Assembly: GCA_031263485.1 (NCBI GenBank)
Contig: JAISFS010000236.1
Span: 1 to 52,753 of the forward strand
Source: Deltaproteobacteria bacterium
Lineage (GTDB): Bacteria; Desulfobacterota; Desulfarculia; Adiutricales; Adiutricaceae
Direction: 5' to 3'
Length of the DNA stretch: 52,753 nucleotides
Below are positions 1-45,905 of the stretch, piece after piece; the stretch's first letter is position 1; each line of letters begins with the position of its first letter. Made by a program: the position numbers and the translations under genes. A model generated the notes under the pieces. The model was not told the DNA's origin. It made no database searches and worked only from the letters and a program-made list of their open reading frames with translations.

Positions 1-340
1 GCCCAGGGCAAGCCCCCGGCGGCGGCCGCTCCGGCCCAGGGCAAGCCCCCGGCGGCGGCCGCTCCGGCCCAGGGCAAGCCCCCGGCGGCGGCCGCTCCGG
101 CCCAGGGCATGCCGACCGCTCCGGCCCAGGGCAAGCCCCCGGCGGCGGCCGCTCCGGCCCAGGGCATGCCGACAGCTCCGGCCCAGGGCAAGCCCCCGGC
201 GGCGGCCGCTCCGGCCCAGGGCATGCCGACAGCTCCGGACCAGGGCAAGCCCCAGGCGACGGCCGCTCCGGCCCAGGCCAAGTCCCTTGCCATGCCAACG
301 GCTCAGACCCAGGGCATGCCCGCCGCTCAGGCGAAAGCCC
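1..340 (+). repeat. In-frame 33-bp/24-bp tandem repeats encoding Pro/Ala-rich units
   Basis: The 33-bp unit (AQGKPPAAAAP) starts at 1, 34, 67, 124 and 181, with a diverged copy at 238. The 24-bp unit (AQGMPTAP) starts at 100, 157 and 214 and alternates with it. Degenerate copies continue to about 340. Both unit lengths keep the reading frame, and several 33-bp copies are identical, which suggests recent expansion. Confidence 0.93.
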
Positions 341-3683: not shown

Positions 3684-5663
3684 TCACTCATTGTCAGTTA
3701 CTTCCCTGAAATCGATCTTGACATCAGATCTATCGACTATGGAAATGGCAACGGCATAAACCTTGTTGCCTTGCCAAAGGAATTTTCTGGCGTATCTAAG
3801 GTTATATATCTGGTTGAAAGCTGAATTAATGCCTCTGTCTAGGCACTTCTTGACAAGTTCGTCATGCGAAAACCTTTTTTTTGGCGGCTTTTGTCTCGAC
3901 TGCTTGACCTCATCGGACGAAGTCTTAGAAGAGGCATCGAGTCGGAGGGGATTTAGGGAGCCGAGCACTGACCTTTTCGCGTCATCATCGACGTCATGTT
4001 CGCTATACGGATCTATCGACTCTTCAGTTTTGAGCTCTGAAATCAGTCCATCAGTTTTATTGTACTTGACTTCAACGACGAGTACGGTCTTATCGCGGAA
4101 CTTGAAGACAAAATCCGGCCTGCCATCACCAGATCTTGATTCCTCCAGCATAAGGCCTTCCATGAATCTGAAGGCTCTGGACAATTCATGTTGGAAAAAA
4201 CGCTCTTCCGTTTTGATGTGTTCGGCAGGAAAGTTGGAAAGCAAGGTCGAAAAAATTTTTGAAGCGGCATCCACGTTCATGCTTGACATCGCATCGCCAA
4301 ATTTTTTATATAATGCTGAAATTTCGTCAACTTCTTTTTCGGTGGCTCCAGGATATAACCTATCGATCAGGTGATCCTTCGCGAAAGACATCTTGACTTC
4401 TTTGTTGGGGATGGAAAGATGGTAAAATATACTTCCTTCTACGTCCCGAGACTTGTCGATTTTCCTGACGCTCAGATATCCTGTCATAAGCAAGGCCGTA
4501 GGTGCCGAAATTTTGGTTAAATCGTCATCGGTGATTATCTCTTCACTGACAGTATTTTTTGCATATATTTTGAAATAGTCGACATCATGGATGTCCAACT
4601 GACGAAGGAAGCCGGGAGCACCGGTTCTGTACCAATATCGGCTGAATTCCTTCGAATCCAAAAACTGCAACACAGAATGTGGGTTGAGAACCTCCGTTTC
4701 CCCGTCCCAGCTGTAGCCGTCGTACCATTCTTTAAGATCAGAAAAGAGGTCTTCTACAGAGGAATGTTGTTTTGCCGCAGGCATGGATTTTCTTGCTTCA
4801 AATGCCGCGTTCAGATGATTTTTAAATGTTGCGTCAATTTCATCAGGAGTGAAGCCACATATTTGCGAATATGAAGAGACAAATGTGATGTCACTTAAGA
4901 TGTTCATGCCGGAATCAGCGAGCAGTTCTTTGAATCTGGTAATCCCGGTTACCAGGAGAAAATCTATTCGACCTTTATCACGAGCTCTTTTCAGAGCCGT
5001 ATAAAATTCGGACAAAGTGCTCTGAACGGACCTGAGTTTTCCAGGGTTATTGTAATTAGCTAAGAGGGGAAAGTCTGACTCGTCTATAAGCACCGAGACT
5101 TTTTTATGGTCGGCACAAGCCTCCAAGCCATCAAATAACACCTTGTCACCGTTGCTCCTCAACACAATGTCGCCATAAGAGTCATAAAGAGCGTTGATCA
5201 GCTCCATAACCGCATCCTTGCTCGTTGTGGAGCAAAGGGTTACGCCAAGTTCTTGGGCGGTGCGATGCAAGCTGGCAGTCAGGCTTTCATCAAACCCCTG
5301 CTTTTCTTGAGTGCTGTCCACAAGACTCAGTTGGATCACATGGCCTTTTTTCCATTTGAAATCGAGTTTCGGATCAGCGATATCCAATCCCTGGAAAAGC
5401 TCCTCTCTTCCCTGAAGAATCGCCTCAACCGTGCTCATCAGAAGAGTCTTGCCGAACCTTCTCGGCCTCGAGAGGAATACCGCTTTGGCATTATTTTTTG
5501 TAAGCAGTCTATGGATAATTTCTGTCTTGTCCACGTAGGCGCGTCCCTCAGAGCGCAATTCAGGAAAATACCCGTCAGCTACCGGCAACTTGGGTAAATT
5601 CCGGTTAGTCTCTTCGTTGCACGAGTTGCATGAATCATCGGGACGTGACGGTTTTCCTTCCAT
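3684..5663 (-). CDS. AAA-ATPase-like / PD-(D/E)XK nuclease fusion protein, copy 1
   Basis: 659 residues of the AAA-ATPase_like (PF09820) plus PDDEXK_9 (PF08011) family, formerly DUF1703. The N-terminus has YVDKTEII. A Walker A variant SRPRRFGKT lies at about 65-73 and Walker B VLIDESD at about 191-197. YDGYSWDG near 314 is typical of the family. The nuclease core has GRPDF (Asp about 517) and VVEVKY (Glu about 531, Lys about 533). An unusually long charged linker of roughly 80 residues separates the EVK motif from the C-terminal block containing VYAVAISI, so the protein is longer than many relatives. The ATG at 5661-5663 has GGAG a suitable distance upstream. The gene is less GC-rich than its surroundings and stands alone, which suggests transfer. 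The biological role of the family is not established; it is common in gut bacteria and often multi-copy. A defence-like or selfish role is only a guess. Confidence 0.9.
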   Translation of the reverse strand: MEGKPSRPDDSCNSCNEETNRNLPKLPVADGYFPELRSEGRAYVDKTEIIHRLLTKNNAKAVFLSRPRRFGKTLLMSTVEAILQGREELFQGLDIADPKLDFKWKKGHVIQLSLVDSTQEKQGFDESLTASLHRTAQELGVTLCSTTSKDAVMELINALYDSYGDIVLRSNGDKVLFDGLEACADHKKVSVLIDESDFPLLANYNNPGKLRSVQSTLSEFYTALKRARDKGRIDFLLVTGITRFKELLADSGMNILSDITFVSSYSQICGFTPDEIDATFKNHLNAAFEARKSMPAAKQHSSVEDLFSDLKEWYDGYSWDGETEVLNPHSVLQFLDSKEFSRYWYRTGAPGFLRQLDIHDVDYFKIYAKNTVSEEIITDDDLTKISAPTALLMTGYLSVRKIDKSRDVEGSIFYHLSIPNKEVKMSFAKDHLIDRLYPGATEKEVDEISALYKKFGDAMSSMNVDAASKIFSTLLSNFPAEHIKTEERFFQHELSRAFRFMEGLMLEESRSGDGRPDFVFKFRDKTVLVVEVKYNKTDGLISELKTEESIDPYSEHDVDDDAKRSVLGSLNPLRLDASSKTSSDEVKQSRQKPPKKRFSHDELVKKCLDRGINSAFNQIYNLRYARKFLWQGNKVYAVAISIVDRSDVKIDFREVTDNE

Positions 5664-12278: not shown

Positions 12279-12806
12279 GTGTTCGACCAGCTGGCCAACC
12301 ACGCCCCCCACATCCATGCCGTCTGCGGGAAGACGCGCCACTTGAGTCCGGAGACCCGGCACAATCATCTGATGCGCTTCTTGGAATTCGACCACGACGG
12401 CGCGATTGTCAACCAGCAGGCCATGAGGCAACTGTCCAGGTGCTATCACGGGAAGCCGACGTTCCGGATGGCTTCATGCCATTTCCTGACCGACTTAAGG
12501 ATCCGCGTCAGGGGCTGCATCATCGAGGACGCCGCCGGGACGATCTTGAGTGAGCTCAGAAAGGGACTCTCAGGGCAATTCGTCGGCATCGAGGCCGAGC
12601 TCGAGGAAAACAGCCTCACGCCCAGGATCGGCGGCGTCTTCGGCCTCGTGAAACCGGAGAAACATGCTCATTACCTCTATGAAGTGGTCAACGACCTCTT
12701 CTCGCTCACGAAACGGTTCAGGGACATTCCCCAGATTTTCCGCATGGGGAACTTCGGCATCATGGCGAGGATCCCCCGCGAGAAGGGCGCCGCGATCCAA
12801 GGCTAG
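12279..12806 (+). CDS. Unassigned protein, probably the intact part of a broken gene
   Basis: 175 residues from a GTG at 12279. The same frame is open back to a TAA near 12190 and codes for plausible sequence there (IEVRRIEAESDADAPKKL), so the true N-terminus may be lost. The sequence has balanced composition and charged helices (for example LFSLTKRFRDIPQIFRMGNF), unlike nearby shadow frames. I do not recognise the family. Its last dozen codons (REKGAAIQ) are the first unit of the 46-bp array that follows. Because 46 is not a multiple of three, the array changes frame at every unit, and the gene was probably truncated when the array expanded. Downstream sequence to about 13.3 kb also has gene-like stretches broken by stops. 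Confidence 0.4.
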   Translation: MFDQLANHAPHIHAVCGKTRHLSPETRHNHLMRFLEFDHDGAIVNQQAMRQLSRCYHGKPTFRMASCHFLTDLRIRVRGCIIEDAAGTILSELRKGLSGQFVGIEAELEENSLTPRIGGVFGLVKPEKHAHYLYEVVNDLFSLTKRFRDIPQIFRMGNFGIMARIPREKGAAIQG

Positions 12807-13055
12807 GGGGAGGGGGACGCCACGCGAGAAGGGCGCGATGATCCAAAGCGAGGGGGAGGGGGACGCCACGCGAGAAGGGCGCCGCGATCCAAGGCGAGGG
12901 CGAGGGGGACGCCCCGCGAGAAGGGCGCGACGATCCAAGGCGAGGGCGAGGGGGACGCCCCGCGAGAAGGGCGCGATGATCCAAGGCGAGGGTGAGGGGG
13001 ACGCCCCGCGAGAAGGGCGCGATGATCCAAGGCGAGGGTGAGGGGGATGCCCCGT
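12770..13055 (+). repeat. 46-bp tandem repeat array, six copies plus a partial seventh
   Basis: Units begin at 12770, 12816, 12862, 12908, 12954, 13000 and 13046 (partial), exactly 46 bp apart. Each contains CGCGAGAAGGGCGC and GATCCAAGGCGAGGG. The inner copies differ by only a few bases, so the expansion is recent. The first copy overlaps the 3' end of the open frame that ends at 12806. Confidence 0.93.
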
Positions 13056-20428: not shown

Positions 20429-20640
20429 GGTTCCGGAACAGGCACGCCGGAAGGGGAAGATCCGGAAGGAATGCCCGGAAGGTGAAGATCCGGAAGGAAT
20501 GCGCCGGAAAGGGAAAGATCCGGAAGGAATGCGCCGGAAAGGGGAAGATCCGAAAGGAATGCGCCGGAAAGGTATGATTCGGAAGGAAAGCGCCGGAAAG
20601 GAGAAGATTCGGAAGGGATGCGCCGGAAAGTCCAATCTGA
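20429..20640. repeat. 30-bp tandem repeat array between genes
   Basis: The phase marker GAT(C/T)CGGAAGG begins near 20459, 20487, 20517, 20547, 20577 and 20607. The period is 30 bp except for one 28-bp unit. The unit contains GGAATGCGCCGGAAAGG. Because 30 is a multiple of three, all frames on both strands stay open, so an expressed 10-residue repeat peptide cannot be excluded, but no start signal supports one. Confidence 0.88.
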
Positions 20641-25307: not shown

Positions 25308-25425
25308 GACCGAGCCAGACCCTCCCCCTAACCCGACCCAGGCCCTCCGCCTTACCCGGCCCAGGCCCTTCGCCTAACCCGGCCCAGGCCCTCCGCCTTA
25401 CCCGGCCCAAGCCCTCCGCCTGACA
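25308..25425. repeat. 23-bp tandem repeat array
   Basis: ACCCGGCCCAGGCCCTCCGC-type units begin at 25331, 25354, 25377 and 25400, exactly 23 bp apart, with a diverged copy before the first. The last base of each unit varies between TTA and TAA contexts. The array is pyrimidine-rich on the plus strand. Confidence 0.88.
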
Positions 25426-25568
25426 CGCACAGGAACTGCCCCTGGCCCGCTCCATACCTCCCGCCCGGACTCCGCCTGTCTTTCCGTCCACCTCCCCATG
25501 CAACTCCCCTGGAACCGGAAGCGCGACGGGTTCACCCCGCCAAGCTTACGAGATTCATTTCAACGACT

Positions 25569-25740
25569 CGTTTCAAACCCTGAGTCAGCATTCGATTCAA
25601 GCCCTGAGTCAGCATTCGATTCAGGCCCCGAGTCAAGGACACGATTCAAGTCCTGAATCAATGGCTCGATTCTAGTCCTGAATCAATGGCTCGATTCAAG
25701 TCCTGAGTCAATGGCTCGATTCATCCCCTGAGGGACGCCC
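25569..25740. repeat. 24/25-bp iteron-like array, each unit with an internal dyad
   Basis: Seven units start at 25569, 25593, 25617, 25642, 25667, 25692 and 25717. Typical units contain GATTCA-N5-TGA(A/G)TC, a 6-bp inverted repeat with a 5-base centre. Spacing is 24 bp for the first two and 25 bp afterwards. Regularly spaced dyads of this kind suit a dimeric DNA-binding protein. The array lies about 570 bases upstream of the radical SAM start. Confidence 0.88.
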
Positions 25741-37224: not shown

Positions 37225-38369
37225 GCCCGGTCAGGACGGTGGGCTTCTACACCGAAGGCCCCCCGTTCGAAGGGGACTCGGTGGAGCGGGGTCCCCTTGG
37301 CGGGAGCGAGACGGCCTTCGTCGAGATCACCCGCGCCATGGCGCGGCTGGGCTGCGAGGTGACCGCCTTCAACAACTGCACCGAGCCCGCCATCCACCGG
37401 GGGGTGGAGTATCACCCCTTCCGCTCCTCGCTCCCGACGCTCGCCAAGCGCCGCTTCGACGTGATGGTGGTGAGCCGCTTCTTCGGCTTCTTCAACCTGC
37501 CCATCAAGGCGTCCCTGAAGGTCCTGTGGAACCACGACACCCTGGAGAACCCGGGGGCACTGCGGAACATCCAGGACGAGATAGACCTCTTCTTCGTGCT
37601 CTCGCGCTTCCACCGCGACAACTACCTCACGCGCCTGCCTCAGCTGGACGATCGCATGGTGGTCACCCGCAACGGCCTGAACTTCGAGCTCATAGACCGG
37701 AGCGCGGAGGGGGCCAGGCGCGACCCGAACAAGCTCCTGTACGCGTCGAGGCCCGAACGGGGCCTGAAACCGCTTCTGGAGGAGATCTGGCCGCGGCTCA
37801 AGGAGGCCCGCCCGGGGCTCAGGCTCCACATCTGCGGCTACACGGTGGACCGCGCCAACCTGGATCCCCAGCTCCCCGAACTTTACGACTACCTGGACTT
37901 CCTGGCGGACCGGGACCCGGACGTCACGGTCCTGGGTGCGCTTCCCAAGCGCGACTACTACAGGCACCTCGCCGAGAGCGCGATGCTCGTCTACCCCTGC
38001 ACCTTCCCGGAAATCAGCTGCATCGTGGCCCTGGAGGCCCAGGCCCTGGGCACGCCGATCCTCACCTCCGACTCCTACGCGCTCTCCGAGTCGGTGGCCC
38101 CCCCCGAGTTCCGCGTGAAGGGGCGCCCCGGGGGCAACGAATGGATCCGGGGCTACGTCGAGCGGGCCCTGAAGCTCCTCGGGGACCCCGAGGGCACGGC
38201 CAGGACCGCCGCGAAGGCCCGTGAGGCCATCCGGGAAAAATACTCCTGGGACCAGGTCGCCAAGGAATGGATGCGCGTCTTCGAGCTGTCCCTGAGGGCC
38301 CGGGAGACCAGGAGACTCTTCGTGGAGAGCTCGACCTCCCAGAGGCCCCGCGATGGACTCCTGGTTTAG
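37221..38369 (+). CDS. Family 4 (group 1) glycosyltransferase
   Basis: 382 residues from a GTG at 37221 that overlaps the previous stop by four bases. GGAGG lies six bases before it, inside the preceding gene. The N-terminus has a Gly-rich acceptor-side motif (RGPLGGSETAFVEITRAMA). The C-terminal nucleotide-sugar domain reads KLLYASRPERGLKPLLE, LHICGYTV, and then VYPCTFPEISCIVALEAQAL, the E-x7-E region typical of GT4 enzymes. Its end overlaps the next gene by 17 bases, which implies translational coupling. It probably adds one sugar to the surface glycan built by this cluster. Confidence 0.92.
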   Translation: MSPVRTVGFYTEGPPFEGDSVERGPLGGSETAFVEITRAMARLGCEVTAFNNCTEPAIHRGVEYHPFRSSLPTLAKRRFDVMVVSRFFGFFNLPIKASLKVLWNHDTLENPGALRNIQDEIDLFFVLSRFHRDNYLTRLPQLDDRMVVTRNGLNFELIDRSAEGARRDPNKLLYASRPERGLKPLLEEIWPRLKEARPGLRLHICGYTVDRANLDPQLPELYDYLDFLADRDPDVTVLGALPKRDYYRHLAESAMLVYPCTFPEISCIVALEAQALGTPILTSDSYALSESVAPPEFRVKGRPGGNEWIRGYVERALKLLGDPEGTARTAAKAREAIREKYSWDQVAKEWMRVFELSLRARETRRLFVESSTSQRPRDGLLV

Positions 38370-41112
38370 GCGCAATCTCGCCCTCCTCAAGGAGAGGGAC
38401 GGGAGGCTCGCCTCCCTGATAGAACTCTTCGCCCCGCAACCGGCGGGGCTTTCCGCGTCCGACGGGGAAGCCGTCCACGCATCCGGGCCCCCGGCGTCGG
38501 TCCCCGAGCGGGAAATCCTGTTCGGGTTTCCTCCGGACGCCGCTCGCCTTTCCGAGAGCCTCCCGCCGTTGCCTCCGGAGGTCGCGGTCGAGCTCGCCTA
38601 TGGCCCGGAGGGCCCCGTCCTGTCCCTGGCCGCGCCCGTAAAGGCGCGGCTCACGAGCCGCTCCCCCGCCAAGGAGGACCGCGCCCTGGCGGACAGGTTC
38701 CTGAGCTCCTGCGGGGACATATCCCTGACCGGCGTGACCGCCCTGGGCCTCGGGCTGGGCAGGCACCTGGAATACATCCTCCCGGAACTCGAAGACGCCC
38801 CCCTGTGGATAGTCGAGGCGGCCCCGCAGCTCTGGGCCGCCGCCATGACGGCCGGGGATCTCTCGCTTCTCCTCTCCCGGCCCAACGTCGTTTTCCTGTG
38901 CGGCGCGCTGACAAGCCTCCCGCCCGAGGCGCCGGCGACCGTGATCGCCCGTCCGACGTCCCTGAAATACTTTCCAGGGATGTACCCGGACCTGCCTGCG
39001 CCGCCTGTTGCTGCGAACATGCCCGTCGCGGCGGACACGCGCGCTGCGGCGATGTCGGCAGACGCGAGCGCCTCGGCTATGTCGCCAGACGCGAGCGCCT
39101 CGGCTATGTCGCCAGGCACGAGCACCGCGGCGATGTCGCCAGGCTCGGCCGATGCGAGGAGGGCAACTGCATCTCCTGGCGTGACGGACAAGCGCGCCGA
39201 GGACGTATCGCCAGACTCCGCCGAAGCGAATGGTATTACGGGGGTACCCGTCGCCGGCGGCCAGCCGATCCCGCCGGACATCTCACTTGCCCGTTTCTTG
39301 CCTCCTCTCGATCGCGCGGGCGGTCCGGATGAGCGCCCGGACTGCCCGACTGGCCTGGCCGGATGCCTGAAGGTTTCCGGGGACGACCAGGCGCCTCGCC
39401 CGGGCCCCTTAACGGTGTCCGGGGATGACCCGTCTCATCGCTCGGGCCGACCGACGGTCCCCTCGGATGCCCCGTCTCATCGCTCGGGCCTCCAGACGGA
39501 ACGCGTCGGCGCTTCGGCGCCCAGGCGCACGCGGAAGCCTAGGGTGCTCTTCTTCAGGAGCGGCTACTTCCTGGACAGGGAGATCCGCTCCGCCTTGGCC
39601 AGGCTGGACTGGCCCTTCGCGCTGTGGGAGATTTCCGACTTCCGGGACGCCTCGAAGGACCGCGGCGCGGACTTCAAAAGGCTCCTTGAGACCATCAAGG
39701 GCTTCAGGCCGGATATCGCACTAACCGTGAACCACCTGGGCTTCGACAGCGACGGGGTGCTCTCGGGGATACTCGGACGTCTGGGGGTGCCTGCGGCAAG
39801 CTGGTTCGTGGACAGCCCTTGGTACATCCTGGGGGGGGCGGAGCTCAACCCCTACCGGGACCTCTGGGCCTTCTCCTGGGACTCGGACTATCTGGCGACC
39901 TTAACGGAGCTGGGATTCCAAAACGTCGCCTGGCTCCCGCTCGCCGCCGACGAGACTCTCCTGGAGGGGGACGCGGCCCGGGACGCCGCACCCGACGCTG
40001 GCAGCCTCGCCAGCGGGGCGGGAGAGCCGCGCCGGGGGCGGGACATCGCCTTCGTGGGGGACAGCCTGGACGCCGCCACCGCCAAGTATCTGGCGCTCGC
40101 GGGCGCGGGCCGCGAGATCCTGCCCGAGGCGGACGCCATTGCCGAAAGGTTCCTCGAAAGCGGCGAGCTCTTCCCGGACATGGAGGCGGCAGTGGCTGCC
40201 GCCCGTTTCGCGTCGGGAGTGACTGAATATGACAGCTGCGACGGCGTTTATGGGACGACGGCGAAGGCCGTCCTCCAAAGTCCGGCGGCATACTCTGCGG
40301 GCGGCAGAGCCCTGACGGAGATCCACGAAACCTGTGCGGCTGACTGCGAAGCCGGTGTAGCGAGCCGTAGCGCCAAGACGGCTGGCCGCAGGGCCCTGAC
40401 TGCAGACCGTGGAGCCCTGGCGGATGGTCAGGCGGCGCGGGCGACGAGCCGAGGAGTCATGGAGACGACCCGAGGAGCCATGGCGGCGGGCCGAGGAGCC
40501 ATGGCGGCGGGTTGCGGAATCCTGGCGCCTACACGCGGCTCCCTGGCCGGCATGTCCGTCAAGGGAGCCTCCTGTACACCTTCTCCTTTGGCGGGGGTCG
40601 CCAGGGACCCGCAGACGCTTTTGAACCTCTCCGCCCTGGTCACCTGGCGGGCCAGCCGCATGGCCAGGGTGCGGGTGCTCTCGGCCATGCCGCCGGGGCT
40701 GTTGACAGTCGCCGGGGACCCGGGCTGGAAGGGACTTCTTTCGTCAGGGGTAACCCTGAGCGGCAGGGTGGACTACCACGGTGAGCTCCCCGGCTTCTAC
40801 AGGGGAAGCAAGGTGAACCTGAACGTCACGAGCGCGCAGATGAAGACCGGCGTGAACCAGCGCGTCTTCGACGCGCCCGCAGCGGGCGGCTTCCTGCTGA
40901 CGGACCGCCGTGAGCAGCTGGAACGGCTCTTCGGGCCCGATGAGCGCTGCTGCTACTCCGATCCGGCCGAGGCAAGCGAGAAGGCGCTCTGGCACCTCGT
41001 GCGGCCGGAGGCTCGCGTGCGGACGGTCGAGGCCGCCCGCCGCGCGGTGGCGCGCCGCCACCTCTACCGCCACAGGCTGCCGGAGCTGACGCGGGCGGTC
41101 CTGGGAGGCTAG
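38353..41112 (+). CDS. CgeB-type glycosyltransferase with two low-complexity inserts
   Basis: 919 residues, much longer than typical members of 400-600. An N-terminal domain (to about 215; VTALGLGLGRHLEYILPELE) recalls the N-terminus of the Maf protein. The DUF3880/CgeB core begins near 394 (RKPRVLFFRSGYF) with VNHLGFDSDGVLSGILG, WFVDSPWYI and IAFVGDSLD. The C-terminal domain (LSGRVDYHGELPGFYRGSKV, NLNVTSAQMKTGVNQRVFDA) is the nucleotide-sugar part. Two inserts interrupt it: about 215-393 with four 9-residue AMSPDASAS units, and about 635-755 with 7-residue RGAMAAG units. The ATG at 38353 lies inside the preceding gene. The frame is intact through both inserts, so the protein is probably made and the inserts probably form disordered loops. 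Confidence 0.88.
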   Translation: MDSWFRRNLALLKERDGRLASLIELFAPQPAGLSASDGEAVHASGPPASVPEREILFGFPPDAARLSESLPPLPPEVAVELAYGPEGPVLSLAAPVKARLTSRSPAKEDRALADRFLSSCGDISLTGVTALGLGLGRHLEYILPELEDAPLWIVEAAPQLWAAAMTAGDLSLLLSRPNVVFLCGALTSLPPEAPATVIARPTSLKYFPGMYPDLPAPPVAANMPVAADTRAAAMSADASASAMSPDASASAMSPGTSTAAMSPGSADARRATASPGVTDKRAEDVSPDSAEANGITGVPVAGGQPIPPDISLARFLPPLDRAGGPDERPDCPTGLAGCLKVSGDDQAPRPGPLTVSGDDPSHRSGRPTVPSDAPSHRSGLQTERVGASAPRRTRKPRVLFFRSGYFLDREIRSALARLDWPFALWEISDFRDASKDRGADFKRLLETIKGFRPDIALTVNHLGFDSDGVLSGILGRLGVPAASWFVDSPWYILGGAELNPYRDLWAFSWDSDYLATLTELGFQNVAWLPLAADETLLEGDAARDAAPDAGSLASGAGEPRRGRDIAFVGDSLDAATAKYLALAGAGREILPEADAIAERFLESGELFPDMEAAVAAARFASGVTEYDSCDGVYGTTAKAVLQSPAAYSAGGRALTEIHETCAADCEAGVASRSAKTAGRRALTADRGALADGQAARATSRGVMETTRGAMAAGRGAMAAGCGILAPTRGSLAGMSVKGASCTPSPLAGVARDPQTLLNLSALVTWRASRMARVRVLSAMPPGLLTVAGDPGWKGLLSSGVTLSGRVDYHGELPGFYRGSKVNLNVTSAQMKTGVNQRVFDAPAAGGFLLTDRREQLERLFGPDERCCYSDPAEASEKALWHLVRPEARVRTVEAARRAVARRHLYRHRLPELTRAVLGG
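39049..39156 (+). repeat. 27-bp in-frame tandem repeat inside the CgeB-type gene
   Basis: Four units of 27 bp encode AMSADASAS, AMSPDASAS, AMSPGTSTA and AMSPGSADA. The first two are nearly identical at the DNA level. Confidence 0.9.
40450..40540 (+). repeat. 21-bp in-frame repeats inside the CgeB-type gene
   Basis: Units of seven codons (TTRGAMA, AGRGAMA, AGCGILA, PTRGSLA) with GGAGCCATGGCGGCGGG exact in two copies. They form part of the second low-complexity insert. Confidence 0.8.
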
Positions 41113-41113
41113 G

Positions 41114-43018
41114 ATGCTCGTCCAGGCGTTGGCCCCGGCCAGGCTCGGGGACTTCATCCAGGCCTCCGCGCTTCTTCAGGGGGTCCTGAAGGCGTATCCC
41201 GGCGCCCGGCTCCAGGTGCTCGCGCTGGACGCGAGCGTCCTGGAGGCGCAAAGGCTCCTCTTCCCGGAGGCGGAAGGGCTCCTCATGGACAGGGACGCTT
41301 TCGGCGCGGGAGCCGCAGGCGGCGCGGGTGAGACGGGCGGCGCGGGTGGCACAGACGCCGCAGGCGCCTCAGGCGGCGCGGGGGCCGAGAGCGGCGCAGG
41401 CGCTACGGGAACGCCGTACGGGACCGAAGCGGACGGAGTGAAGCTGGATGCCAATCCCGCCGCGGCAACTGCCAGAGTCGGCGGTATCCCTCGCGGAGCG
41501 GAACTCCTCGTGAACCTGTCGGTGGATCCGCGGGCAGTAAGCCTCGCCCGCACCCTTGCCCCGAAGGAAATCCTGGGCCCGCGTCCGGAGGGGGACGGCA
41601 TCTTCGTTCCCGTCGCGCAGAGGCTGGCGATAGCGGCCATGAGGCTGGACCGCAGGTTGGGCCGGCTGAACCTCACGGACGTCTGGCGGGCGCTCGTGCC
41701 CGGCTCGCCCCCGTGCCTGGCCCGGCCGGCCGCGCAGCCCGCCGCTAACGGCGCGGCCCTGGAGGCGCTGGAAGCGGCGGGCACCCTGCCAATAGTCTGC
41801 TTCCACCTCGGCGCCAAGGCCGCCTTGAGGCGCTGGCCGGTGGACTTCCACGCGAAAATGGCCGCAACGCTCTTCGGGATCACGCCGTTTCTGGCCGTGA
41901 CCCTGGGGAGCCGACAGGAGAGGGCCCTGGCCCTGAAGTTCCGGGACGTCTACGGTCGCGCGGCACCAGGCGCTCCCGTAGCCGATCTCTCCGGCAGGAC
42001 CCGGCTGGAGGACCTCTGGGCGCTGTTTGACAAGGCGGCGCTCCTGATATCATCGGACACCGGGATCATGCACCTGGGCGCCTCGCTGGGAGTCCCCCAG
42101 CTCGCGGTGTTCGCCGGCCCTGCCTACGCCCACGAGACCGGTCCTTACGGGGAAGGCGCCCTGGTGCTGCAGGGCCTGGCGCCCTGCGGCCCATGCGTGG
42201 AGAACAAGGGCTGCAAGAGGCCGGAGTGCCGCGCTCTGCCCCCCTGGGAGGCGGCCCTGCCGCTGGCAGGTGCGCTGTTGACCGCCGCGGCCATGGCTAC
42301 TGTCCGTCCGGCGAATGACGGCATGGCGCGCGATGGCCGAACGAACGAAGACATGGAGCGTGATGCCCTTGCGAAGGAAGGCATGGCTCGCGATATCCAG
42401 GCGAAGGAGGGCATGGAACGCGATGGCCAGGCGAAAGAAGGCATGGAGCGTGATGCCCTCGCGAAGGACGGCATGGCGCGCTACGGAGAGGAAAATGAGG
42501 CCTTGGCGGGGAACGGCAAACGTTTGCGAACGTTCGGGAGCGGCGCGGACAAGCCAGAAGCCGTAGGCTTCCCTGTCCCCTCCCCTCCTCCCGGAATGTC
42601 ATGGGAAAGCTGGACCACCGTCATAAGCTCCAGAGGGGCATCGCTTGTCCCTCGCGGCCCCTTTCCGGCGGTTCTGGACGAGAGGGCGCTTGCGGGCCTG
42701 ATGTTCCGGGAAGGCGCACGATCCGTAGTGTGGGGAACCGCGGAACCCGACGATGGACGGAAGAGCGGCGAGATGGGGATGTCTGACGAATCAACAGGAT
42801 CGCTCAAGGCGCCTGGATCTTCCGAAACGCAGGGAGCGTCCGAAGCCGTCTGCGCCGAACTGTCTCTCTACAGACACAGTTCTCGGCAGGAGCTTAAGAA
42901 AGTGAAGGCTTTCCTCTCCTACATCGAAAGGAAGGCGTTGGACGCCAGCGACAGGAAAGTATTCAGGATGGCCTGGGAAGAAGCGCTCGACTCGGCAGTC
43001 CGCCAGGGAATGCTGTAG
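41114..43018 (+). CDS. Family 9 (heptosyltransferase-like) glycosyltransferase with repeat-rich C-terminus
   Basis: 634 residues; family members are usually about 350. The GT9 core is present but split. The N-terminus LVQALAPARLGDFIQASALL matches the usual start of ADP-heptose transferases. A Gly/Ala-rich insert follows at about 63-115. The second domain has CFHLGAKAALRRWP, VTLGSRQE and SSDTGIMHLGASLGVPQLAV, then CGPCVENKGC. After about residue 400 come ten-residue repeats (KEGMERDALA type) and a C-terminal helical tail (SSRQELKKVKAFLSYIE). The ATG at 41114 is one base after the previous stop, with GGGAGG upstream. It is the last gene of the coupled unit. It could transfer heptose or another sugar to lipopolysaccharide or a glycoprotein. 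Confidence 0.9.
   Translation: MLVQALAPARLGDFIQASALLQGVLKAYPGARLQVLALDASVLEAQRLLFPEAEGLLMDRDAFGAGAAGGAGETGGAGGTDAAGASGGAGAESGAGATGTPYGTEADGVKLDANPAAATARVGGIPRGAELLVNLSVDPRAVSLARTLAPKEILGPRPEGDGIFVPVAQRLAIAAMRLDRRLGRLNLTDVWRALVPGSPPCLARPAAQPAANGAALEALEAAGTLPIVCFHLGAKAALRRWPVDFHAKMAATLFGITPFLAVTLGSRQERALALKFRDVYGRAAPGAPVADLSGRTRLEDLWALFDKAALLISSDTGIMHLGASLGVPQLAVFAGPAYAHETGPYGEGALVLQGLAPCGPCVENKGCKRPECRALPPWEAALPLAGALLTAAAMATVRPANDGMARDGRTNEDMERDALAKEGMARDIQAKEGMERDGQAKEGMERDALAKDGMARYGEENEALAGNGKRLRTFGSGADKPEAVGFPVPSPPPGMSWESWTTVISSRGASLVPRGPFPAVLDERALAGLMFREGARSVVWGTAEPDDGRKSGEMGMSDESTGSLKAPGSSETQGASEAVCAELSLYRHSSRQELKKVKAFLSYIERKALDASDRKVFRMAWEEALDSAVRQGML
42314..42493 (+). repeat. 30-bp in-frame tandem repeat inside the GT9 gene
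   Basis: Six units of 30 bp encode NDGMARDGRT, NEDMERDALA, KEGMARDIQA, KEGMERDGQA, KEGMERDALA and KDGMARYGEE. A degenerate seventh unit follows. The alternating acidic and basic residues suggest a charged helix or a disordered tail. Confidence 0.93.
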
Positions 43019-43925: not shown

Positions 43926-45905
43926 TCAATTACCTGGAACTGCCACTAATTCAATTTGATCGGAAGTCTCGATTTTCCAAATGACGCGTTGGAATCTAAT
44001 TTTTACAAATGATGAATCATAGATTGCAACGGCAGCGGCAAAAACTTTTTCATTACCTCCTAAATATGGTGTTGAGTATCTTCTGTTGACTATCTGCTCA
44101 AAAGCCTTGATAATATTTTTTTCAAGACTTTTTTTGGCAGATTCGGGCATATTCATGGGCCCGATCTCGGCCGAAGGAACTCCAGGCGGTGGAATGACGC
44201 TGAATTCCCCAGGAATTGAAGATGTTTCGTGTTTTGATACAGGTTTTGTTTTGAGATTCAAGATACGAACTGAATTATCTGAATATTCCAGGTTGCTGAC
44301 ACCGGAGCTGACACCGGAGCTGACACCGGAAATAACTGTTGGGTTCCGCGGCTTTTCGTGCTTGACCTCGACAATAATCCAGTCGTTAGTTGGCGTTCTC
44401 AGGACAAGATCGGCCCTGCCTTTAATCATGACAGATTCACCGATCGGCCTGTTTTTCCCAATATTTAGGCAGTAAAACAAAAGGATACAGTAAATCCACT
44501 CTTCTGACAAATTGTAATAGTATGGAACAGATGTGATGAAAGACGTGAAAAGTTCTTCAGATTTTGTAATATCGAGTGAACAGAAGGCATTGTAGAAATC
44601 CTGATAGCGCTTATTCACATAATTTTCTGTTGTTTGAAATTCTATAGGGACAGTTAATCTTCTAATAAATTGGTTGAAAATCGAATCACATATCTCAGCA
44701 TTTGGAATTTTAAGGTAATATATCTTATCGTTATCTATCCCTTCAATTCTGTCGATAGTCAGATAACCCGCTTGAAATAGAATCTCATTTTCATTGATCA
44801 GATTATGTGTGTCAGAAACTGTTATATCACTTGAAAATGAAGGATCAGCAGAACCCTTACTCATTGAGAGATTATTCAAGAAAACTTTAAAATAACTATC
44901 CGAACCTAAACCAAGTTTATGTATAAAATACTGTGAACCTGATTCGTACCAAAAATCAGAAAATGTTCCAGTGTTTATGCAATTCATTACTGAAAAAGGA
45001 TTGAGCAACAGATTCTTGCCATCCCAAGAATAGCCATTGTACCATTTTTCCATTTTTACCATAAGGTCGTCCACGGTGGCGTTTTGACCGAATGCTCCTT
45101 CAGATTTCATTATTTCAAGTGCTGAATCAAGATAGTCTTTGAATGAAGACGATATTTCCTTACTTGTGAATCCACAAATTTTTGAAAATGAAGGATCCAG
45201 AGATATGTCTTTCAAATTATTCATTCCGGAAAGGACAGACAGTTGATCAAATTTTGTAACTCCGGTAATAAAAACAAATCTGAAATATTCATCGTTCTTT
45301 TTAATCACTGAATAAAAATCATGAAGCATAGATCTGATTGCTTCTGTCCTATCTGGATTTCCAATAGTTTTCACTAATGGCATATTATACTCATCAATAA
45401 GAAGCACAACATTCTGCGGAGAATCGTCTATAGGACCATCTTCGTGTGGGTTCACATAAGGCGCCTGCATTCTTGAAGTACGCGTTATCAGTCTGGAAAA
45501 GGCACTCTCTGGTGAAGTTGTCGGAATTGTTATGCCAAGATTTTCAGCGACTTCAACGAGATTGTCGGTTAATGACTTTGCAAATATTTCAGGGTTTGAA
45601 GAAACATCGCTCAAATCAATCCTGATCACCGGAAAATAATGCCAATCGTACCCGCTGTTCGATTGCCCTATCGCCATTTTTTCGAACAGGTGACGGTTGC
45701 CCAAGGCAATGTTTCTGATCGTGTCCAGAAGAAATGTCTTACCGAATTTCCTCGGCCTGGCGAGGAAATATGGGCCTTCATTCCTGTCCAACAAGTCATG
45801 GATCATATCAGTCTTATCTACGATAGGCAATCCCCTCCGTATGAACATGCCGAAAGTTTGACGATGGGTCAGCAAAGGCGGTAAACGCTTCAGTTTGGCA
45901 TTCAC
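43926..45905 (-). CDS. AAA-ATPase-like / PD-(D/E)XK nuclease fusion protein, copy 3
   Basis: 659 residues of the same family as copies 1 and 2, and apparently intact. It has IVDKTDMI, Walker A ARPRKFGKT at about 49-57, Walker B VVLLIDEYNMPL, WYNGYSWDGKN, and the nuclease core KGRADLVLR followed by WIIVEVKHEK. A linker after the EVK motif contains a 12-bp tandem repeat (SGVSSGVSSGVS). The C-terminal block has VFAAAVAIYD. The start is a GTG at 45903-45905 with GAGG about ten bases upstream. It is AT-rich and stands alone behind a perfect consensus promoter. Similarity to copies 1 and 2 is only moderate by eye, so they are not recent duplicates of each other. The cellular role is unknown. Confidence 0.9.
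   Translation of the reverse strand: MNAKLKRLPPLLTHRQTFGMFIRRGLPIVDKTDMIHDLLDRNEGPYFLARPRKFGKTFLLDTIRNIALGNRHLFEKMAIGQSNSGYDWHYFPVIRIDLSDVSSNPEIFAKSLTDNLVEVAENLGITIPTTSPESAFSRLITRTSRMQAPYVNPHEDGPIDDSPQNVVLLIDEYNMPLVKTIGNPDRTEAIRSMLHDFYSVIKKNDEYFRFVFITGVTKFDQLSVLSGMNNLKDISLDPSFSKICGFTSKEISSSFKDYLDSALEIMKSEGAFGQNATVDDLMVKMEKWYNGYSWDGKNLLLNPFSVMNCINTGTFSDFWYESGSQYFIHKLGLGSDSYFKVFLNNLSMSKGSADPSFSSDITVSDTHNLINENEILFQAGYLTIDRIEGIDNDKIYYLKIPNAEICDSIFNQFIRRLTVPIEFQTTENYVNKRYQDFYNAFCSLDITKSEELFTSFITSVPYYYNLSEEWIYCILLFYCLNIGKNRPIGESVMIKGRADLVLRTPTNDWIIVEVKHEKPRNPTVISGVSSGVSSGVSNLEYSDNSVRILNLKTKPVSKHETSSIPGEFSVIPPPGVPSAEIGPMNMPESAKKSLEKNIIKAFEQIVNRRYSTPYLGGNEKVFAAAVAIYDSSFVKIRFQRVIWKIETSDQIELVAVPGN
44299..44334 (-). 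repeat. 12-bp in-frame tandem repeat in AAA-like copy 3
   Basis: Three copies of CTGACACCGGAG (plus-strand reading) encode repeated Ser-Gly-Val-Ser in the linker after the nuclease motif. The third copy diverges at its end. Confidence 0.85.

Follow-up and report, generated by a model that had tools for sequence, protein, structure and literature searches.

Low-complexity inserts in Plasmodium proteins are encoded by AT-rich DNA and are rich in Asn. They bear repeats, change fast and lie between conserved blocks of housekeeping proteins, and it is debated whether they are neutral or selected. Rickettsia palindromic elements are in-frame additions to many unrelated proteins of one bacterium and are dispersed copies of shared families. 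In phase-variable contingency loci, tandem repeats may lie within glycosyltransferase genes, and a change in copy number shifts the frame or the promoter spacing. Here, we describe the tandem arrays of a bacterial contig of 52,753 nucleotides (JAISFS010000236.1, analysed in full and called the window), above all those inside a neighbouring pair of glycosyltransferase genes, one CgeB-type and one GT9. Tandem repeats are probably born throughout this genome, likely without regard to phase, and the arrays in the two genes would be those that happened to keep the frame. Their persistence likely reflects the tolerance of flexible protein linkers, not a role in varying a surface glycan.

The nearest precedent is the archaeon Methanobrevibacter ruminantium, whose genome carries mutually unrelated satellites, scattered at 28 per Mb (Subirana and Messeguer 2019, PMC6749651). 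As in the satellite-rich prokaryotes of that paper, the arrays described here have units of 10-200 bp, are scattered and mutually unrelated, and are partly coding and partly not. In the table of PMC6749651, the densest bacterial replicon has 23 satellites per Mb and the densest archaeon has 89. With at least four copies of a 10-200-nt unit, Tandem Repeats Finder (TRF) gave 93 arrays per Mb in the genome of the window, G000 (26 arrays in 0.279 Mb; 50 per Mb if copies match by at least 80%), and 302 per Mb in its congener G004 (72 arrays in 0.238 Mb; 126 per Mb if copies match by at least 80%). This rule is similar to the published one but not identical, with TRF in place of the paper's own program. 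The present case is a denser bacterial variant, in which in-frame linker growth is documented across orthologues. Our literature searches found no paper on Adiutrix with tandem repeats and, judged mostly by titles and the opening of abstracts, none that describes such a bacterial genome.

The window is a complete contig of G000, a 6.50-Mb metagenome-assembled genome (MAG) of 337 contigs and 82.8% completeness. It is related to Candidatus Adiutrix, which is placed in Desulfarculia, and its lineage presumably inhabits the termite gut. Those relatives that bear a name are MAGs called “Deltaproteobacteria bacterium”, and a protein from a genome in the same family carries the label Candidatus Adiutrix sp. 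All genome sources were MAGs; the congeners of G000 include G001, G002, G003, G004 and G005, and G009 belongs to another genus of the same family.

Inserts of the CgeB-type and GT9 proteins

An earlier note on this DNA had reported two inserts with 27- and 21-bp units in the CgeB-type gene, and a Gly/Ala insert plus 30-bp units in the GT9 gene. These features are real: TRF recovers all three arrays, the Gly/Ala insert is present, and the inserts of both genes are in frame (Table 1). The inserts are only partly tandem repeat, the remainder being non-repetitive and composed mainly of small residues. Five arrays were found in the two open reading frames (ORFs), with periods of 27, 42, 21, 18 and 30 bp, every one divisible by 3. 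First-order Markov resamplings of the same DNA, which preserve its dinucleotide composition, yielded no such arrays. By the definition of PMC6749651 (at least four copies of a 10-200-nt unit), the 27-, 18- and 30-bp arrays qualify with 4.0, 4.7 and 5.7 copies, and the 42- and 21-bp arrays, at 2.8 and 3.2 copies, fall short of the minimum.

The note's further statement that conserved sequence resumes in frame past each insert is borne out by orthologue alignments on both flanks, although the linker sequences themselves are unrelated between species. Since the cores are conserved family-wide and the inserts preserve the frame, the proteins are under selection, as had been supposed. A CgeB-type relative was found in 51 of 60 genomes searched and a GT9 relative in 39 of 40. 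The GT9 locus was retrieved from 19 genomes other than G000, and in each it shares a contig with the CgeB match. Apart from the window's own contig, the protein searches yielded nothing nearly identical to either protein.

For the comparison of lengths, CgeB linkers 1 and 2 are bounded at residues 214-392 and 610-756. CgeB linker 1 spans 179 amino acids (aa) in G000, 36-179 aa in six congeners and 2-94 aa in 19 family genomes outside the genus. Across five congeners, linker 2 measures 147 (G000), 135, 124, 122 and 28 aa, the last in G002; outside the genus it measures 13-26 aa in 18 of 19 family genomes and 131 aa in G009. G003, where this linker meets a contig end (0 aa), was excluded. The linker 2 units are unrelated among G000, G001, G004, G005 and G009, and a further variable stretch lies close to the CgeB N terminus. 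In GT9, the Gly/Ala insert has 66 aa in G000, 18-58 aa in four congeners and 6-22 aa in 18 other family genomes. The second insert has 103 aa in G000 and 18-27 aa in four congeners, an expansion this large being found only in G000.

Structure prediction, which the earlier note had proposed as a check, puts the inserts mostly in low-confidence loops outside the confident fold. The AlphaFold2 model of GT9 (20 sequences) has a mean predicted local distance difference test score (pLDDT) of 79.0 and a predicted template modelling score (pTM) of 0.77. In Foldseek it matches heptosyltransferases, including E. coli heptosyltransferase II (1psw; E 6.7e-12, TM by target 0.71). Its pLDDT falls below 50 at residues 70-122, 398-409, 450-482 and 543-566, and residues 411-439, encoded by the 30-bp array, are predicted to be helical with moderate confidence. 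The predicted GT9 fold is thus unbroken by the inserts. The CgeB model (14 sequences; mean pLDDT 59.6, pTM 0.50) matches GT-B enzymes weakly among known structures (best E 4.2e-4, with a large root-mean-square deviation), and its pLDDT is below 50 at residues 27-103, 218-391, 542-559 and 625-747. The CgeB inserts are predicted as low-confidence regions, and a model of this quality supports no further statement.

Array density, reading frame and folded domains

Densities were counted with TRF (minimum period 9, minimum copy number 2.5, minimum score 60) in samples of 53 to 400 kb each, the contigs being chosen by their number or because of earlier hits. G000 has 20.5 arrays per 100 kb (68 in 332 kb, window included), and G004 has 49.9 (119 in 238 kb), where arrays make up 10.6% of the sampled DNA. 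Without the loci chosen for glycosyltransferase hits, the densities are 18.9 and 48.4, respectively. A pooled 53 kb of G001, G002, G003 and G005 gave 32.2 per 100 kb. Low densities were found in genomes of the same family and class (G028, 2.2; G042, 1.7), and 100 kb of E. coli K-12 held two arrays, both of them long-unit, domain-size repeats. As G042 has a GC content of 66%, GC alone does not explain the density.

The arrays share almost no sequence. Clustering of the units of at least 15 bp gave 62 clusters from 63 units in G000 and 103 from 115 in G004, where the largest cluster has three members. Almost every unit being distinct, no mobile element is indicated, and local birth fits. No sequence family common to many loci, such as the Rickettsia palindromic elements form, was found; there is nearly one unit per array. 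Most arrays consist of copies less than 95% identical to one another.

Inside genes, the periods keep the frame. Genes were called with a codon-usage caller written for this analysis, and arrays partly overlapping a gene (three in G000, four in G004) were put in neither class. The period is divisible by 3 in 24 of 26 arrays inside called genes of G000 against 14 of 39 outside (Fisher 6e-6), and in 38 of 42 against 26 of 73 in G004 (Fisher 5e-9). Pooled, this gives 62/68 inside genes and 40/112 outside, the latter being the third expected by chance; across five family genomes the counts are 82/90 and 65/169. All six exceptions in G000 and G004 start at or before residue 31, where the ORF start is uncertain. 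Contingency loci depend on a change of frame or spacing, whereas the gene-internal periods found here are multiples of 3. The caller assigns a coding fraction of 0.58-0.59 to G000 and G004, 0.80 to G028 and 0.84 to G042, and it overlooks some genes, for example an AAA-ATPase-like ORF at 43926-45905.

Folded domains are spared as well. The 26 arrays compared, in 17 proteins, have no overlap with any matched Pfam domain; 8.8 overlaps were expected, and none of 20,000 random placements gave so low a count. The scan behind this comparison covered 21 of the 55 array-bearing called genes plus a protein that has no internal array, and four without a Pfam match were dropped along with that one; each family was represented by its best stretch alone, coordinates were entered by hand, and a CgeB orthologue was counted twice. 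As in Plasmodium, the inserts lie between conserved blocks and outside folded domains and are not conserved among orthologues. The differences are that the host is a bacterium, the DNA is GC-rich, the units are about 9-150 bp long, and the inserts are rich in Ala, Gly, Ser and Pro.

Because periods divisible by 3 prevail in genes but not between them, and the units are unrelated and scattered, the repeats are likely tolerated mutational debris. Slippage or template switching at short direct repeats may give rise to new arrays, of which those that shift the frame or hit a folded core would be purged. The survivors would decay by point mutation into degenerate linker sequence while new arrays follow, and repeated birth and decay could lengthen linkers and tails. 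Weak selection in a host-bound population might, at a guess, underlie the high rate of birth or retention. If this holds in long reads, few known bacteria would be as rich in minisatellites as this genus, which would offer a natural test of how new protein linkers and tails originate from neutral repeats under selection for frame and fold only.

Competing explanations

The earlier note proposed that changes in repeat number within the glycosyltransferase linkers vary enzyme length or activity, and hence the surface glycan, as a form of antigenic variation. Further glycosyltransferase genes do adjoin the pair, its arrays preserve the frame, and its linker lengths vary between species. However, arrays of the same kind are also seen in intergenic DNA and within proteins that work inside the cell (MutS, RadA, DNA polymerase IV and a cysteine desulfurase), and the units are unrelated between loci and between orthologues. 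Moreover, the GT9 30-bp array is present only in G000 among five congeners with the gene, and the inserts lie mainly outside the confident fold. Antigenic variation is, on this evidence, quite improbable, and in-frame repeats in a single glycosyltransferase need a genome-wide baseline before such a reading is adopted. It is unlikely, though less so, that the inserts have a selected but non-variable function, as flexible tethers or in phase separation or protein binding, with the repeat a mere route of building. Against it, the unit sequences and compositions are unrelated between orthologues; CgeB linker 2 is, in addition, just 28 aa in G002 and 13-26 aa in most family members. What speaks for it is that several species, including G009 of another genus, have linkers inflated at the same sites, that part of the 30-bp array is predicted to be helical, and that the ratio of nonsynonymous to synonymous differences (pN/pS) between copies tends to be lower in the coding frame than in shifted frames. 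An artefact of assembly or binning, with repeats made or misplaced by short-read assembly or contamination, is very improbable: copies within arrays differ, coding frames run through them with conserved blocks on both flanks in several independent MAGs, and frame selection differs inside and outside genes. The dependence on MAGs would fit an artefact, as would the contig ends of G004, 14 of 38 of which lie in arrays against 8.7% of interior windows (the interior count in the Fisher test being rounded from this percentage). The enrichment is confined to G004 (G000, 2/35; G009, 0/21; G006, 0/14), and the array density of G004 is likely underestimated because its contigs often end in arrays.

Several results weigh against the preferred reading, survival of in-frame repeats from a genome-wide birth process. 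High density extends beyond the genus (G006, 30.7 arrays per 100 kb; G009, 12.0; G012, 7.8), and the caller requires an open frame, so that the contrast in divisibility by 3 is partly built in. The median pN/pS between copies is 0.61 in the coding frame against 1.01 and 1.06 in the shifted frames, with 17 of 25 arrays lower in frame, a difference that is not significant (P=0.15); the pooled ratio shows no reduction in the coding frame (0.91 against 0.75 and 0.89). A mild constraint on the repeat residues is possible. Four congeners have UvrA on a single contig, and in none of them is it interrupted or extended. Inflation of the whole proteome was rejected as a general rule: in 57 gene pairs (non-edge genes, at least 60% of the reference spanned), the median excess of the aligned span is 0, with an excess above 20 aa in 8/57 pairs against 4/49 in the control and a median length ratio of 1.08 against 1.01. 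Finally, among seven repair genes, no loss explains the birth rate.

Loss of repair genes as the cause was accordingly rejected. MutL, MutS, UvrA, PolA, XseA and a RecG-like protein were matched in all six congeneric genomes, and SbcD in five of six, without a match in G001 (74% complete). No RecG-like match in 25 genomes reached that family's cut-off, MutL is split over contigs in G001 and UvrA in G002 and G004, and the G004 MutS reaches its cut-off only when the ORF is scanned alone. Inflation is nevertheless strong in some multi-domain proteins. MutS open frames span 1155-1372 aa in six congeners against 869-1227 aa in 20 other family genomes (G008, without a match, and G027, in pieces, being excluded), and SbcD frames span 631-861 aa in five congeners against 421-518 aa in 11 others. 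These are stop-to-stop frames, which overstate the proteins; the MutS ORFs have 1097 aa in G000 and 1289 aa in G004. A self-feeding regime, in which unchecked repeat birth swelled the genome and lengthened the linkers even of repair proteins (MutL, MutS, SbcD, PolA, RadA and DNA polymerase IV), weakening repair and yielding more repeats as a bacterial counterpart of the Plasmodium proteome, seems rather unlikely.

Other array-bearing proteins and annotation

The MutS linker (profile positions about 375-406) bears a 48-bp array of 8.1 copies in G004, and a 24-bp array of 4.0 copies and a 30-bp array of 3.3 copies in G005; TRF found no array in the MutS linker of G000. Two congeners thus carry differing in-frame arrays in the same linker (L184:1671-2055 and L185:1536-1875). 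The RadA protein (805 aa) matches its model at residues 185-635 and has arrays at 164-174 and 682-796, and the array of DNA polymerase IV sits in the C-terminal tail. A SufS-like cysteine desulfurase (L060:10066-12924) is extended at its N terminus by 548 residues, a stretch that includes a 36-bp array, and it resembles a family 2A encapsulin cargo (717 bits, below the cut-off of 800).

Table 1. Positions of the two glycosyltransferase ORFs, their inserts and the tandem arrays in the window
Feature	Position	Strand	Details
CgeB-type glycosyltransferase ORF	38353..41112	+	919 aa; PF13524 at 783-912, PF12996 at 483-570
CgeB insert 1	38992..39516	+	residues about 214-388, between conserved blocks
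27-bp array, CgeB insert 1	39034..39142	+	4.0 copies; TRF
42-bp array, CgeB insert 1	39372..39490	+	2.8 copies; TRF; not listed in the earlier note
CgeB insert 2	40180..40608	+	residues about 610-752, between conserved blocks
21-bp array, CgeB insert 2	40440..40506	+	3.2 copies; TRF
GT9 glycosyltransferase ORF	41114..43018	+	634 aa; PF01075 at 219-364
GT9 Gly/Ala insert	41294..41491	+	residues about 61-126
18-bp array, GT9 Gly/Ala insert	41302..41386	+	4.7 copies; TRF
GT9 second insert	42284..42592	+	residues about 391-493
30-bp array, GT9 second insert	42310..42481	+	5.7 copies; TRF
57-bp array	61..277	+	3.8 copies; TRF; in ORF with histidine-kinase and response-regulator domains (Pfam); reaches contig start
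46-bp array	12774..13054	.	6.1 copies; TRF; mostly outside called genes; unit not divisible by 3
30-bp array	20445..20630	.	6.3 copies; TRF; outside called genes
23-bp array	25315..25421	.	4.7 copies; TRF; outside called genes
25/50-bp array	25560..25731	.	TRF; outside called genes

Database gene calls from the same contig are shorter than the ORFs of Table 1, at 659 aa for the CgeB-type protein and 459 aa for GT9 (72% of the query). Judged by length, they start inside CgeB insert 1 and past GT9 insert 1. Annotation pipelines therefore lose the conserved N-terminal blocks of both proteins, and in such genomes called genes are cut short at the N terminus where inserts occur. Owing to the 30-bp repeat, GT9 residues 384-454 score 41.8 with the NCBIfam model “pentapeptide MXKDX repeat protein”, whose cut-off is 41; this match is likely compositional.

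Elsewhere in the window, the contig start (1-286) lies within a tandem array. The window also holds two ORFs of 659 aa, at 43926-45905 and 3684-5663; the former matches AAA-ATPase_like (PF09820) and, weakly, PDDEXK_9, and contains a 12-bp array of 3.0 copies at 44295-44330.

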